Shown here piece by piece: positions 1 to 18,216 of a stretch of DNA of 25,344 nt. Position 1 is the first letter of the stretch. Every line of letters starts with the position of its first letter. Origin of the DNA: Bacteroidales bacterium (GTDB lineage Bacteria > Bacteroidota > Bacteroidia > Bacteroidales > UBA932); the NCBI GenBank assembly GCA_017535125.1, contig JAFXUS010000042.1, positions 1 through 25,344 of the forward strand, in the 5' to 3' direction. The position numbers and the translations under genes were made by a program. The notes beneath the pieces were generated by a model. The model made no database searches. It was not told the origin of the DNA and saw nothing but the letters and a program-made list of their open reading frames with translations.

Positions 1-402
1 ATTGCCAGCGTGGACGACCCGACGGGGCGCGAGCTCGTGTTCATGGGCGCCTTCCTGGACATCATCCAGCGCTTCACGGAAGAGGCCATGGTCTCCGATA
101 ATGTGGCCTACAGCGGCCTCGAATCGGCCAACCGCATCCACCTGCGCGGCCGCACGGTCTATCTCGATCCGGACGCGGGCGACGAGGCCTACCTGCGGGA
201 AGAGCCGGGCGCCCTGCTCACCATCACCATCGCGCCGGAAGAACCCGGCCCCAGGACCGTCTGCTACAAGATCCTCATCTCGGCCGACACGCACGAACTC
301 CTCTCCTACGAGCGCAGCCGCTACAAAGAACCCGACGACGCACGCTTCAGCGACGCCGAAGCCCATCGCTTCGAGCGCCGCGGCGCCACGGTCATTCGCT
401 AG
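1..402 (+). CDS. Unrecognised protein, C-terminal part (5' truncated by window)
   Basis: The frame is open from base 1 to a TAG at 400-402, giving at least 133 residues. The upstream part lies outside the window, so the GTG at 10 need not be the real start. The visible part is hydrophilic and soluble-looking, with no membrane segment, and rich in Asp/Glu/Arg. It alternates short beta-like stretches (for example HLRGRTVYLD and TVCYKILISADTHEL) with charged loops, and ends in Arg. I do not recognise the family and see no catalytic motif. Base composition matches the neighbours, so transfer is not suggested. The gene converges on the response regulator gene, and the stop codon directly abuts the repeat element at 403-503. 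That it is a real gene is fairly sure; its function is unknown. Confidence 0.6.
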   Translation: MASVDDPTGRELVFMGAFLDIIQRFTEEAMVSDNVAYSGLESANRIHLRGRTVYLDPDAGDEAYLREEPGALLTITIAPEEPGPRTVCYKILISADTHELLSYERSRYKEPDDARFSDAEAHRFERRGATVIR

Positions 403-503
403 CCGGCAGCGGAAAAGCGGAGCCGGAATTGGTTTTCCGGCAAACTTGTTCGGAAAATAATTCAGGTCCGCCCGTCTGGAAGACTCCGACTGCCGGCGAA
501 AAA
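403..503. repeat. Structured intergenic repeat, copy 1 (arms shared with 17754-17847)
   Basis: This fills the gap between two convergent genes. The left arm (403-422) and right arm (466-488) match a second copy at 17754-17847 almost base for base, while the core differs. It can fold: CCGGCAG (403-409) pairs with CTGCCGG (490-496), CGGA (410-413) with TCCG (485-488), GCGGA (417-421) with TCCGC (467-471), and an inner hairpin GCCGGAA (422-428) pairs with TTCCGGC (435-441). It has no ORF of its own and no clean terminator U-run. Candidate roles are a REP/BIME-like repeat, a non-autonomous mobile element, or a bidirectional 3'-end structure. Confidence 0.65.
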
Positions 504-1649
504 TTAGAGGTTAACGTATGTTCGGACGTCGTCCGCGGAAACGGGCTCTCCGCCGAGGATGAGGAGCCGGTCGACGACGTTGTCCAGTTCGCGGATGTTG
601 CCGGGCCAGTGCTTCTGCTTGAGGAGTTCCACAGCCTCGTGCGAGAAACTGCGCGGCCTGTTGTCGTCGGCGTATTTCTCCAGGAAATGGTCGATCAGGC
701 GTGGAATGTCGTCGCGGCGTTCGTCCAGCGACGGCACGCGCACCACGATCACGCTCAGGCGGTGATAGAGGTCCTCGCGGAAATTCCCCTTCTCGATCTC
801 GGCCTGCAGGTCCTTGTTGGTCGCGGCGATCACGCGCACGTCCACCTCGATATCCTTGTCGGAGCCCACGCGGGACAGCTTCTTCTCCTGCAACACGCGC
901 AGCACCTTGGCCTGCGCGGCAAGGCTCATGTCTCCGATCTCGTCGAGGAAGAGCGTGCCGCCGTCGGCCTGCTCGAACTTGCCCTTGTGCTGTTTGATGG
1001 CCGAGGTGAAAGAGCCCTTCTCATGACCGAACAGCTCGCTCTCGATCAACTCGGACGGAATTGCGGCGCAGTTCACCTCCACGAACGGCATCGCGCTGCG
1101 GTTGCTCAGCTGGTGCAGGTTGCGCGCCACCAGCTCCTTGCCGGAGCCGTTCGGCCCGGTGATGAGCACGCGGGCATCAGTGGGCGCCACCTTGGCGATC
1201 ATGTCGCGGATGAGCTGCATCGGGGCGGACTCGCCGATCATGTCGGCTCCATAGACCTTCTTCTTGAGGGCCTTGTTCTGCGTGGTCAGCGAGACCCGCT
1301 CGGAAGCGTTCTTGATGGTAATCAGGATGCGGTTGAGATCGAGCGGCTTCTGCACGAAATCGAAGGCGCCCTTCTTGATGCACTCCACGGCGGTCTCGAT
1401 GTCGGCGTGGCCGGAAATCATCACCACGGCGCTGTCCAGACCCATTTCCACGAGCTTCCCGAGCACCTCGACGCCGTCCATGCCGGGCATCTTGATGTCG
1501 CAGAAGATCACGTCATATTTCTCCTTCTCCACCAGAGCGAGTCCGGAAGCGCCGTCCTCGGCGGTATCCACCTCGTAGCCTTCGTCGGTGAGGATCTCCC
1601 CCAGCGAATTGCGGATCGCCCGCTCGTCGTCAATAATCAGAACTTTCAT
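504..1649 (-). CDS. Sigma-54-type response regulator without HTH domain (AtoC/NtrC-like)
   Basis: A 381-residue response regulator. The receiver domain (about 1-120) has acidic D7/D8, phosphoacceptor D51 and K101. The AAA+ domain (about 135-365) has Walker A GPNGSGKE (165-172), Walker B FLDEIGD (234-240) and WPGNIREL near 348. The sigma-54 contact loop, usually GAFTGA, reads GSFTSA (212-217). The protein stops 26 residues after that WPGNIREL motif, so the C-terminal Fis/HTH DNA-binding domain of typical NtrC proteins is absent; similar short forms exist in Bacteroidetes (from memory). I chose the ATG at 1649 because the protein then begins MKVLIIDDER; the ATG at 1691 would overlap metG. It follows metG by 13 nt and is probably co-transcribed. 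No histidine kinase is in view, so its signal is unknown. Confidence 0.9.
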   Translation of the reverse strand: MKVLIIDDERAIRNSLGEILTDEGYEVDTAEDGASGLALVEKEKYDVIFCDIKMPGMDGVEVLGKLVEMGLDSAVVMISGHADIETAVECIKKGAFDFVQKPLDLNRILITIKNASERVSLTTQNKALKKKVYGADMIGESAPMQLIRDMIAKVAPTDARVLITGPNGSGKELVARNLHQLSNRSAMPFVEVNCAAIPSELIESELFGHEKGSFTSAIKQHKGKFEQADGGTLFLDEIGDMSLAAQAKVLRVLQEKKLSRVGSDKDIEVDVRVIAATNKDLQAEIEKGNFREDLYHRLSVIVVRVPSLDERRDDIPRLIDHFLEKYADDNRPRSFSHEAVELLKQKHWPGNIRELDNVVDRLLILGGEPVSADDVRTYVNL

Positions 1650-15713: not shown

Positions 15714-16352
15714 TTATTCTCCAAACTGGGTCGGCTTCGGCGCGAACAGTCCGTAGAGCTGCGCGTCGATCATGTCGGTCACCTTCTCGAAGTCCTCCGG
15801 ATTGTTGCCGAACTTGATGTGGTCGGCGTCGATGACCAGCAGGTTGCCGTCGTAGTCCTTGATCCAGTTCTCGTATTTCTCGTTGAGCCCGGTCAGGTAG
15901 TCGATGCGGATGCTCTTCTCGTACTCGCGGCCGCGCTTCTGGATCTGCGAGATGAGGTTGGGGATGCTGGAGCGGAGGTAGATCAGCAGGTCGGGATTGC
16001 CGACCAGCGACATCATCAGGTCGAAGAGGTCGGTGTAGTTCTCGAAGTCGCGGGTGCTCATCAGCCCCATGTCGTGCAGGTTGGGCGCGAAGATGCGGGC
16101 GTCTTCGTAGATGGTGCGGTCCTGGATGATGACGTCGTCAGTCTTGGCGATCTCCACCACGTCCTTGAAGCGCTTGTTGAGGAAATAGATCTGGAGGTTG
16201 AACGACCAGCGTTCCATGTCTTCGTAGAAGTCGGACAGGTACGGATTGAAGTCCACGGATTCGAATTTCGGGATCCACCCGTAATGCGCGGCCAGCATCT
16301 TGGTGAGCGTGGTCTTGCCGCTGCCGATATTTCCTGCAATCGCAATATGCAT
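15714..16352 (-). CDS. Deoxynucleoside kinase, paralogue 1
   Basis: A 212-residue kinase of the dCK/dGK/dAK family that phosphorylates deoxynucleosides in salvage. The P-loop is GNIGSGKT (7-14), the base-binding region FESVDFNPYL (30-39), the DRS-type motif IIQDRTI (75-81), and the lid KRGREYE (139-145). IDADHIKF follows near 174. It is about 60% similar along its whole length to the gene immediately upstream, so the pair arose by tandem duplication. In lactobacilli such tandem dGK/dAK proteins form heterodimers; whether that applies here is inference. The substrate cannot be told from sequence. It carries its own TAnnTTTG box 21 nt before the ATG, inside the 33-nt gap. Confidence 0.9.
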   Translation of the reverse strand: MHIAIAGNIGSGKTTLTKMLAAHYGWIPKFESVDFNPYLSDFYEDMERWSFNLQIYFLNKRFKDVVEIAKTDDVIIQDRTIYEDARIFAPNLHDMGLMSTRDFENYTDLFDLMMSLVGNPDLLIYLRSSIPNLISQIQKRGREYEKSIRIDYLTGLNEKYENWIKDYDGNLLVIDADHIKFGNNPEDFEKVTDMIDAQLYGLFAPKPTQFGE

Positions 16353-16385: not shown

Positions 16386-17000
16386 TTATTTGAATAGGCC
16401 GAACAGTTCGGCGTCAATCTTGTCGGTAATCAAGGCAAAGTCTTCCGGGTTGTTCTCGAAGTCCAGGTGGTCGGCGTCGATGACCAGCAGCGGGTCCTTG
16501 TACGCCCCGATCCATTTCTCGTAACGCTCGTTCAGGCCGCTCAGGTACTCCAGGTTCATGCTCTGCTCGTACTCGCGGCCGCGCTTCTGGATCTGCTCCA
16601 CCAGGTGCGGCACGCCGCAACGGAGATAGATCAGCAGGTCCGGCGGGCTGACCAGCGACATCATCAGGCGGAAAAGCTGCATGTAGGTGTCGTAGTCGCG
16701 GTCCGACAGGTTGCCGAGGTCGTGGTTGTTTGCCACGAAGATCTCCACGCCCTCGAGGATGGTGCGGTCCTGGATGATGACGTCGTCCGACTTGGAGATG
16801 TCCAGCAGATCCTGGAAACGCTGCGCGAGGAAGTAGGTCTCCAGGTTGTAGGACCAGCGCGCGATGTCCTTGTAGTAATCCTCCAGATAGGGATTGTAGG
16901 TCACGGATTCATATTTCGGCGTCCAGCCGTAATGCTCCGAGAGCTTACGGGTGAGGGTGGTCTTGCCGCTGCCGATATTTCCTGCGATACCAATATGCAT
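16386..17000 (-). CDS. Deoxynucleoside kinase, paralogue 2
   Basis: A 204-residue kinase with the same layout as its downstream neighbour: P-loop GNIGSGKT (7-14), YESVTYNPYL (30-39), IIQDRTI (75-81), lid KRGREYE (139-145) and IDADHLDF near 174. It lacks the last eight residues of the paralogue and ends in GLFK. Differences cluster in the substrate-side segments, such as ARWSYNLETYFLAQ versus ERWSFNLQIYFLNK, and around residues 83-100, which may mark different base preference. The ATG at 17000 is chosen because the P-loop must start within ten residues of the N-terminus; the upstream open frame is antisense to the hydrolase gene. It is transcribed from a promoter overlapping that of the divergent hydrolase. 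Confidence 0.9.
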   Translation of the reverse strand: MHIGIAGNIGSGKTTLTRKLSEHYGWTPKYESVTYNPYLEDYYKDIARWSYNLETYFLAQRFQDLLDISKSDDVIIQDRTILEGVEIFVANNHDLGNLSDRDYDTYMQLFRLMMSLVSPPDLLIYLRCGVPHLVEQIQKRGREYEQSMNLEYLSGLNERYEKWIGAYKDPLLVIDADHLDFENNPEDFALITDKIDAELFGLFK

Positions 17001-17005
17001 ACCTA

Positions 17006-17038
17006 CAAATTTAACACAAGTTTTGTAAATTTGCCAAT
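17006..17038. promoter_or_regulatory. Overlapping divergent promoters (kinase 2 and MBL hydrolase)
   Basis: The minus strand has TAAATTTG (17006-17013) with ATTG (17035-17038) as a -33 box at 21-nt spacing, 5 nt before the kinase ATG. The plus strand has TAAATTTG (17026-17033), 21 nt before the hydrolase ATG. The two boxes are identical and inverted, forming an AT-rich near-palindrome, so polymerases on the two promoters would compete. Confidence 0.5.
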
Positions 17039-17054: not shown

Positions 17055-17753
17055 ATGCTCAATATCCGCTCCCTCACCTGCAATCCCCTTCAGGAGCGCG
17101 CCTACGTGGCCTGGCGCGAGCCCGGCCGCTGCATCGTCGTCGATCCCGGCAGCTACGGCACCGCCGAGCGGCAGGCGCTCGAGGCGCTCTTCGCGCAGGA
17201 GAAGCTGACCCCGGAAGCCGTACTGCTCACGCACGCCCACTTCGACCACATTTATGGCGCGAAGCCGCTCCAGGAGCGCTACGGCATCCCCATCTATATG
17301 CACCCCGCCGACGAGCCGCAGCTCACGCACGTCAGCACCATGCCGCGCATGCTGGGCATGGACGATCCGGCCACGGACTTCGACTGGACGCCGCTGTCCG
17401 AAGGCCTGCTCCGCGTCGCGGGAATGGAATTCGAAGTCATCGCCACGCCCGGTCACACCCCCGGCGGCGTCTGCTTCCTCGACCGCGAAGCCGGCGTCCT
17501 CTTCACCGGAGACACCCTCTTCGCCGGTTCCATCGGCCGCACCGACCTCCCCGGCGGCGAATACGACGACCTCATCCGTTCCATCATGGAAAAGCTGATT
17601 CTCCTCGACCCGCAGACCCGCATCTTCCCCGGCCACGGCCCCTCCTCCACCATCAGCCAGGAGCGCACGGGGAATCCGTTTTTGGAGCCCTTCAATGAGC
17701 CCGAAGAAACCCCCGACCCCGACCTGGAACCGGTTATCATTAACAGAACATGA
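17055..17753 (+). CDS. Metallo-beta-lactamase-fold hydrolase (glyoxalase II-like)
   Basis: A 232-residue cytoplasmic hydrolase. The metal-binding motif HAHFDH gives H60, H62, D64 and H65; further ligands are H134 (TPGHTPGG), D153 (FTGDTLFAGSIGRTDLPGG) and H194 (FPGHGPSS). All ligands of the dinuclear metal site are present. GDTLFAGSIGRTD is typical of the short YcbL-type relatives of glyoxalase II, so a thioester of glutathione or another thiol is a possible substrate; this is not proven by sequence. The Pro/Glu-rich C-terminal tail (211-232) is less conserved. The ATG at 17055 is chosen because it begins the fold and follows a promoter box; the longer open frame upstream is antisense to kinase 2. 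Confidence 0.9.
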   Translation: MLNIRSLTCNPLQERAYVAWREPGRCIVVDPGSYGTAERQALEALFAQEKLTPEAVLLTHAHFDHIYGAKPLQERYGIPIYMHPADEPQLTHVSTMPRMLGMDDPATDFDWTPLSEGLLRVAGMEFEVIATPGHTPGGVCFLDREAGVLFTGDTLFAGSIGRTDLPGGEYDDLIRSIMEKLILLDPQTRIFPGHGPSSTISQERTGNPFLEPFNEPEETPDPDLEPVIINRT

Positions 17754-17847
17754 TCCTGGCCGGCGGCGGAAAAGCGGAGCGGAAATTGGTTTCTCGGGAA
17801 CCGAAAGTAAATTTTCGTCCGCCCGTCTGGAAGTCTCCGCCGCTGCG
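17754..17847. repeat. Structured intergenic repeat, copy 2
   Basis: This fills the gap between the convergent hydrolase and DUF486 genes and abuts the DUF486 stop codon. The left arm (17759-17779) differs from copy 1 (403-503) at one base in 21, and the right arm (17818-17840) at one base in 23. The core between them is shorter and diverged. The outer stem CGGCGGCGGA pairs with TCCGCCGCTG with one mismatch. Where copy 1 has A at 408, this copy has G, and its right arm has changed too, which fits pressure to keep pairing. Confidence 0.65.
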
Positions 17848-18216
17848 TTATTTCAGGAACACGAAGAAGACAGCGAGGATGAGGCACACGAAGGCGGCGA
17901 GGTGATTCCACTGGAGGGACTGGCCCTGGAAGAGGAAGTGGACGATGACGGTGAAGACCGTCAGGGAGATGGCCTCCTGGATGACCTTGAGCTGCATGAG
18001 GTTGTAGGGGCCGCCATTGCCGACGAAGCCGATGCGGTTGGCCGGGACGGTGAGGCAGTATTCGAAGAAAGCGATGCCCCACGAGAATAGAATGATGAGA
18101 ATCAGCGGCCAGCCGGTCGAGATCTTCATTTCCTGCAGCTTGAGATGGCCGTACCACGCGAACGTCATGAAGATGTTCGAGCAGATCAGCATCAGGATGG
18201 TCCAAATACCTTGCAT
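17848..18216 (-). CDS. DMT-type small membrane protein (DUF486)
   Basis: A 122-residue inner-membrane protein with four hydrophobic helices, roughly 3-22, 36-54, 78-96 and 104-120. The sequence MQGIWTILMLICSNIFMTFAWYGHLK, the central FFEYCLTVPANRIG and the segment QLKVIQEAISLTVF are characteristic of the DUF486/DMT family, which is related to small multidrug-resistance-like transporters. Its substrate is unknown. An in-frame ATG at 18255 lies upstream of the predicted transcription start, so 18216 is preferred. It has its own TAnnTTTG box after the pbpC stop codon and ends directly at repeat copy 2. Confidence 0.85.
   Translation of the reverse strand: MQGIWTILMLICSNIFMTFAWYGHLKLQEMKISTGWPLILIILFSWGIAFFEYCLTVPANRIGFVGNGGPYNLMQLKVIQEAISLTVFTVIVHFLFQGQSLQWNHLAAFVCLILAVFFVFLK

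Follow-up and report, generated by a model that had tools for sequence, protein, structure and literature searches.

Evidence for a non-autonomous palindromic mobile DNA element between and within genes of a Bacteroidales genus

Introduction

Small palindromic repeats have been described from several systems. Rickettsia palindromic elements (RPEs) are reported as palindromes of about 100–150 bp, belonging to several families and found intergenically as well as in frame within conserved genes; guanylate kinase, the product of one carrier gene, was shown to be active (PMC2229807, PMC10969869). Bacterial MITEs such as ERIC and Correia/NEMIS are small and non-autonomous, have terminal inverted repeats and in some cases give rise to in-frame fusions (PMC2229807). 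In E. coli REPs, a mismatch bulge is needed by TnpA-REP (PMC8266576). In mitochondria of Nematomorpha, inverted repeats lie inside protein genes, and their arms are thought to change together (PMC6649704). Among the titles and abstract openings that we searched, in a literature mostly without subscription journals, we found no report of in-frame palindromic elements in Bacteroidales; in the accessible part of a recent REP survey, the only mention of Bacteroidota is in a table listing other genera (PMC12306157).

Here, we analyze two related sequences, W1 and W2, within a 25,344-nt stretch of a Bacteroidales genome (contig JAFXUS010000042.1), referred to as the window. The original prediction described them as two copies of a defined element, with fixed arms and a free core, and suggested a repeat of the REP or MITE kind or a structured RNA. 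We find that W1 and W2 are very probably copies of a non-autonomous palindromic mobile DNA element that spreads in one Bacteroidales genus, and we propose a hairpin mechanism for it.

Results

Two copies between convergent genes

W1, measured from outer stem to outer stem, occupies positions 402..497 of the forward strand, and W2 positions 17757..17846 of the same strand. Our family model scores W1 at 102.5 bits (400–495) and W2 at 86.4 bits (17757–17845), both copies being among the sequences from which it was built. The 22-nt left arms, which start at 402 and 17759, differ by one base, as do the 23-nt right arms, which start at 466 and 17817. Since the next-best sites in the window have at least 6 mismatches to the left arm and at least 7 to the right arm, the predicted pair of near-identical arms is real. 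The core hairpin (414..473 in W1, forward strand, with a GG/T internal loop and 20 pairs counted; 17771..17823 in W2, forward strand, with a short loop) is a row of the core alignment in each case and is common to both copies, loop length being the main difference. Where the alignment has a T facing GG, W2 carries an A instead. By arm comparison, the conserved right module of W1, GTCCGCCCGTCTGGAAGACTCCG, spans 466..488 on the forward strand and contains a small GTCT/AGAC hairpin.

Each copy lies between convergent genes. W1 is bounded by the end of a 130-aa gene (10..402, forward strand), which has no match in a Pfam search and has orthologues in relatives, and by the end of a response-regulator gene (504..1649, reverse strand), with orthologues of up to 96% identity; we take this regulator to be of NtrC type. 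W2 is bounded by the ends of a metallo-beta-lactamase-fold (MBL) hydrolase gene (17055..17753, forward strand; PF00753) and of a DMT_6/DUF486 membrane protein gene (17848..18216, reverse strand; PF04342), for which orthologues were found. Elsewhere in the window are two adjacent similar genes (15714–16352 and 16386–17010), presumably encoding deoxynucleoside kinases. As predicted, the element corresponds to no known Rfam family: there is no match at gathering threshold in the whole window, and none over the element at E≤1 in four related loci.

W1 and W2 are gained DNA

To obtain empty sites for W1 we compared 30 regulator loci, of which 7 have the neighboring gene within 100 bp. The other 23 were not used (13 have no upstream-gene orthologue, and 10 have it at least 600 bp away), and loose-pattern element matches at L205, L209, L210 and L216, which seem due to AT-rich sequence, were not counted. 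In five of the seven (L198, L199, L202, L207, L211) the element is absent and the spacing between the aligned gene ends is −1 to 6 bp, versus about 107 bp in the window. L200 has a 34-bp remnant, and L197 has another repeat. For W2, 23 loci were compared, including 15 without the MBL neighbor, three with only a distant partial match to it (L232, L239, L240) and one with a 300-bp gap (L245). The gene ends nearly abut without the element in L231, L243 and L246 (the last two judged by eye), and L247 has another palindrome at this junction. L249, which lacks the MBL neighbor, carries a broken element copy at the corresponding DUF486 gene end. Because gene ends abut or nearly abut in relatives that lack the element, W1 and W2 are gained DNA, and both are insertions.

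These junctions also bear on whether the window copies are simply bidirectional terminators, or boundaries between convergent genes. Their placement exactly between convergent stops is what such a role would predict. However, five relatives at W1 and three at W2 have abutting gene ends that leave no room for a hairpin, and a number of copies lie inside genes, so that we regard this explanation as extremely unlikely.

The termini of the element are variable, a fixed terminal inverted repeat (TIR) is not established, and neither a target-site duplication nor an excision product could be defined. W1 has TA on both sides, yet 7 more bases do not fit, which makes a TA target duplication suggestive, not convincing. 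Remnants were seen at the W1 junction (L200), in PrmC (L174), in ManA (L046) and at the W2-equivalent gene end (L249). In L200, L174 and L046 the right module is kept and the core hairpin is missing; the element thus seems to decay by deletion.

Distribution of the family

An exact 24-base pattern over both arms gave 6 matches in the whole genome_contigs collection, against a chance expectation of about 0.06 that ignores base composition. These matches fall in four Bacteroidales MAGs, two of them labeled yak rumen and goat omasum; carrier records in general include MAGs. A covariance model built from 8 copies (R1) found 6, 14, 9 and 4 places in G001–G004 at E≤1e-4, counting one strand per place. 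With a second model (R2), restricted to the core hairpin, the element was detected in 66 or more of the 400 genomes searched within a single Bacteroidales genus, a lower bound given that at most 13 candidates were scored per genome, and a close search with R2 located 29, 24 and 17 places in G444, G346 and G536. We believe the carrier genus to be Cryptobacteroides. The remaining samples, like the R2 genus search, were run with stricter filters and 13–68 candidates scored per genome, so that their matches are likewise lower bounds. In this way R1 matched at least 7 of 61 genomes of the genus (two draws differing only in centre genome) and at least 1 of 149 sampled from the family, and R2 matched at least 1 of 344 across the order; in both wider samples the match is the known carrier G003 itself. 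The further copies that the prediction anticipated are therefore present in relatives, and their changes preserve pairs, as described below.

Copies may occur in clusters, three lying 700–800 bp apart in one case (G002:C77, 5695–7278) and two about 330 bp apart in another (G180:C3, 1776–2194). Integron attC sites, considered for the first cluster, were set aside, no attC boxes being recognized by eye. Carriage by phages or plasmids was rejected, since viral_contigs gave no match with one core pattern and W1 had no match in plasmids or phages.

A conserved core within compensating arms

The short form of the element is about 85–105 bp. Its core is a hairpin of about 60 nt, AATT-GG-TTTTTCGG-loop-CCGAAAAA-T-AATT, that continues into a GC-rich stem. 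Across 29 distinct cores, 96.5% of cells are paired, and shifting the alignment by one column lowers pairing to 58–64%; the helix was drawn from the same 29 sequences, which favors the first figure, and the contrast is still large. Both sides have changed in 14 of the 20 core pairs, and 0 of 500 shuffles reach these levels. Of the 29 rows, 28 have the GG and 26 have the T facing it. Among 579 cells scored for pairing, 554 are Watson-Crick, 5 are G-U and 20 are mismatched. The scarcity of G-U suggests that pairing in DNA, or correction of the palindrome, fits better than selection on RNA.

Two classes were distinguished by eye. Class I adds GGAMAG on the left of the core and CCGTCTGGAAGACTCC on the right, and class II has GCGTTGGCGTTGTGGAG and CGCGGGG in their place. 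An outer stem of variable sequence surrounds both classes. In 47 distinct class I copies, 30 left arms occur over 34 distinct inner sequences. Here, pairing within a copy covers 6.04 of 8 positions, versus 4.55 across copies, and 0 of 2000 permutations reach as high; we offer this statistic as a description rather than a probability, as copies from related loci are not independent. W1 itself has only 3 of 8 positions paired in the ungapped register, a one-base shift lowering the score of such copies. Outer arms thus tend to differ between copies while remaining complementary within each copy. The predicted arrangement of fixed arms and a free core is roughly reversed, since the core hairpin is conserved family-wide and the outer stem varies most, with compensation. 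By contrast, the idea of a defined dispersed element of the REP or MITE kind holds up well, with many copies, pair-keeping changes and no Rfam match.

The architecture is modular. In G346, 12 of the 16 copies fetched (of 24) carry one of two outer stems. One of these, the ATTCGCCGG...CCGGCGAAT palindrome, occurs in five class II copies and also stands alone; such a short stand-alone palindrome, encoding the peptide FAGLTGESP, was seen in PrmC of L171 (G450) near 1993–2031, and related forms occupy the W1- and W2-equivalent junctions of L197 and L247. In G444, the long class I form, which has a second hairpin, accounts for 10 of 29 copies, the short form for 16 and other forms for 3.

Matching arms that differ between copies, with nearly all pair changes being Watson-Crick, would also be expected if the repeats spread without a transposase, by template switching during replication together with gene conversion between quasi-palindromes; template switching has been proposed for other coding palindromes (PMC6649704). 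Such a process can hardly place near-identical cores at dozens of sites in one genome, as in G444, and we consider transposase-free copying of this sort doubtful.

Copies inside protein genes

Some copies lie within coding sequence, in either orientation. Among the 46 match rows with a fetched locus (five further G002 matches, C2, C13, C50, C74 and C109, were left out), 10 are fully inside conserved genes and free of stops: three in PrmC, two in DapF, and one each in ManA, TrpC, a U32 peptidase, MetH and RmlD. One more copy sits at a contig edge, within an MBOAT fragment, and one ManA copy is a remnant. In XseA and one other gene, a copy at the gene end provides the stop codon. Insertion in frame into a conserved gene with insert-free homologues was found for PrmC and DapF, the two genes for which such homologues were compared (besides the ManA remnant). 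For the other genes the in-frame assignment is read from an open frame and family matches, several of which are below the family cut-off (the MetH fragment, the NCBIfam models of ManA and TrpC, DltB). In G444 and G346, codon support on both sides was obtained for only 2 of 45 fetched copies (RimO and a DltB-like gene), indicating that the element is mostly intergenic in these genomes and that in-frame insertion is a minority habit.

PrmC was examined in 123 proteins (the 120 best database matches and three from element loci), of which 122 were classified after P0044 was dropped. One loop is short (≤13 residues) in 77, holds the element in 20 and a remnant in 2, and holds something else in 23. 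Among these relatives the element is present in four readings. On a tree of the protein outside the loop, with one change being a gain or a loss, reading A requires 9 changes, of which supported branches force at least 7; the corresponding figures are 4 and 3 for C, and 2 and 2 for B. Reading D is a single row. The tree of the rest of the protein thus demands repeated gains or losses at this loop. P0004, with the insert, and P0008, without it, are identical outside the loop. Likewise, L037 and P0001 (312 aa) carry the element, whereas P0002 and P0003 (284 aa; 91% and 90% identical to L037) lack it; these two could be excision products rather than empty targets.

DapF was examined in 122 proteins, P0182 and P0224 being left out as not read. 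In the loop after GTGIT, 20 proteins have the element in the antisense reading and 2 have it in the sense reading; 75 have other long sequence there, and 23 have a loop of ≤32 residues. Either these sites in PrmC and DapF attract insertions or only insertions there survive, two options that are inseparable here. The same MBOAT/DltB-like gene has a copy at about the same place in L055 (G208) and L126 (G444), and is possibly a third hot spot.

The PrmC and DapF loops also hold other repeated insert peptides, for example GQENRPRSAAEMPSRGKP, PSFAGHEKSARQILG and GISPEPPAAINPFPT (P0026, P0030, P0038, P0128, P0133, P0155). Apparently, these are other element families or diverged relatives. Compared with the fetched loci, palindromic DNA is convincing for family F8 and for the F5/F6/F7 group, weak or partial for F3, F4 and F9, and was not found among those loci for F2. 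The ends of the F2 peptide, RAG...STTPTHAS, resemble one antisense class II reading, RAD...STTPAHAS, and this likeness makes F2 a possible relative of class II in which the core differs.

The structured-RNA option of the original prediction, an ncRNA gene or cis-regulator kept by selection on its fold, can be weighed against these data. Strong covariation, a fold resembling a three-way junction and invariant unpaired motifs in class I are all in keeping with it. On the other hand, pairs change almost only as Watson-Crick, copies sit in both orientations inside coding genes, near-identical proteins differ in presence or absence, and Rfam gives no match. The first two points in particular disfavor this option, which we now judge to be very unlikely.

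Effect on the carrier protein

Class I copies have a mean of 4.88 of 6 frames open; dinucleotide shuffles give 3.74. Among 30 copies, 28, 29 and 30 are open in the three antisense frames, and 28, 24 and 7 in the sense frames. For P0001 PrmC, an AlphaFold prediction made with 50 sequences has a mean pLDDT of 82.6 and matches E. coli PrmC (2b3t, TM 0.78/0.88); residues 162–190, the insert, are the only stretch of three or more residues with pLDDT under 50. By this prediction, the fold is intact and the insert forms a disordered loop on it. With stops missing from most frames, the element may be tolerated in proteins as such an extra loop.

Mobility and the candidate enzyme

The element inserts, resides in frame, turns over and leaves partial remnants. 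How it does so can be outlined in a model. The element would move as a DNA hairpin, a trans-acting enzyme may recognize it by the GG/T bulge, and the arms would be kept complementary by hairpin-based copying or repair, by selection for the hairpin, or by both. Our leading guess for the enzyme, a speculative one, is a single-strand Y1/HuH transposase of the TnpA-REP-like type, acting on the single-stranded hairpin; another kind of transposase is an equally uncertain candidate.

We considered whether the element is a REP or BIME of a known superfamily (GTAG or CGTC) and is mobilized by a RAYT resident in the genome. It is a hairpin with a conserved bulge, such as E. coli REPs need (PMC8266576), and Y1_Tnp matches occur in four of five carrier genomes (three over cut-off). 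Of 118 copies, 64 have CGTC in the flank 3′ of the hairpin foot, most of them judged by eye to be class I. Repeats with CGTC have been reported from Bacteroidetes (PMC3733652); in the present family the motif lies inside the larger element, not at its end. However, none of the 118 copies has GTAG 5′ of the foot and only 2 have it 3′ of the foot, and the element is about 100 bp and modular rather than 20–40 bp. The core hairpin is present in 0 of 8 Y1_Tnp loci (about 3 kb each, from five genomes), and the RAYT-type transposase that the original prediction proposed to look for was not seen beside copies there. One of these Y1_Tnp loci is about 2.1 kb from a copy (G208:C31), and G001 has 6 copies and no Y1_Tnp match. 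The Y1_Tnp matches are weak and none is adjacent, so that they link no transposase to the element, and membership of a known REP superfamily is improbable.

A tandem array encoding repeats such as RRQAPDGRQPSGFPGWGIHPKPVAGAGPGRPAAI lies upstream of a RAYT-like Y1_Tnp gene in L064 (G208:C14), and probably represents that gene's own repeats.

Discussion

In-frame selfish palindromes are best known from Rickettsia. In the present family, presence and absence are recent and the sites are repeated hot spots. These features, together with 66 carriers beside 334 genomes without a match, make target choice, protein tolerance and the moving enzyme directly testable. One picture, which we put forward tentatively and at rather less than even confidence, is that the genus hosts a community of palindromic families competing for the same permissive loops of housekeeping proteins. 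They would enter in any open frame or orientation, be lost within species leaving peptide remnants, and be driven by a hairpin-specific enzyme. If so, new protein sequence would be arising from them in gut bacteria, as a continuing process open to observation. For annotation, the practical warning is against mistaking such inserts, which are DNA elements, for protein domains.

Compared with described systems, the element is, like ERIC, Correia/NEMIS and other MITEs, a small non-autonomous repeat sometimes fused in frame. Unlike these, it has variable termini, with no fixed TIR or target duplication established here. It shares with REPs and REPINs mobilized by TnpA-REP (RAYT) an imperfect hairpin with a conserved bulge, here the GG/T loop, but is practically without GTAG at the foot, has no adjacent RAYT that we could find, is larger and modular, and also lies inside genes. 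As in the coding palindromes of Nematomorpha, inverted repeats with co-varying arms occur inside protein genes; the Bacteroidales element differs in being a dispersed family with a conserved core sequence. The resemblance to RPEs is that of a dispersed palindrome, both intergenic and in frame, although the short form here may be somewhat under 100 bp. The two differ in phylum, and in the Bacteroidales element one site takes the insert in at least four readings and both orientations, the arms vary with compensation, and carriers belong to one genus only among the genomes searched. By analogy of behavior, rather than by sequence comparison, the Bacteroidales element is like an RPE in another phylum.
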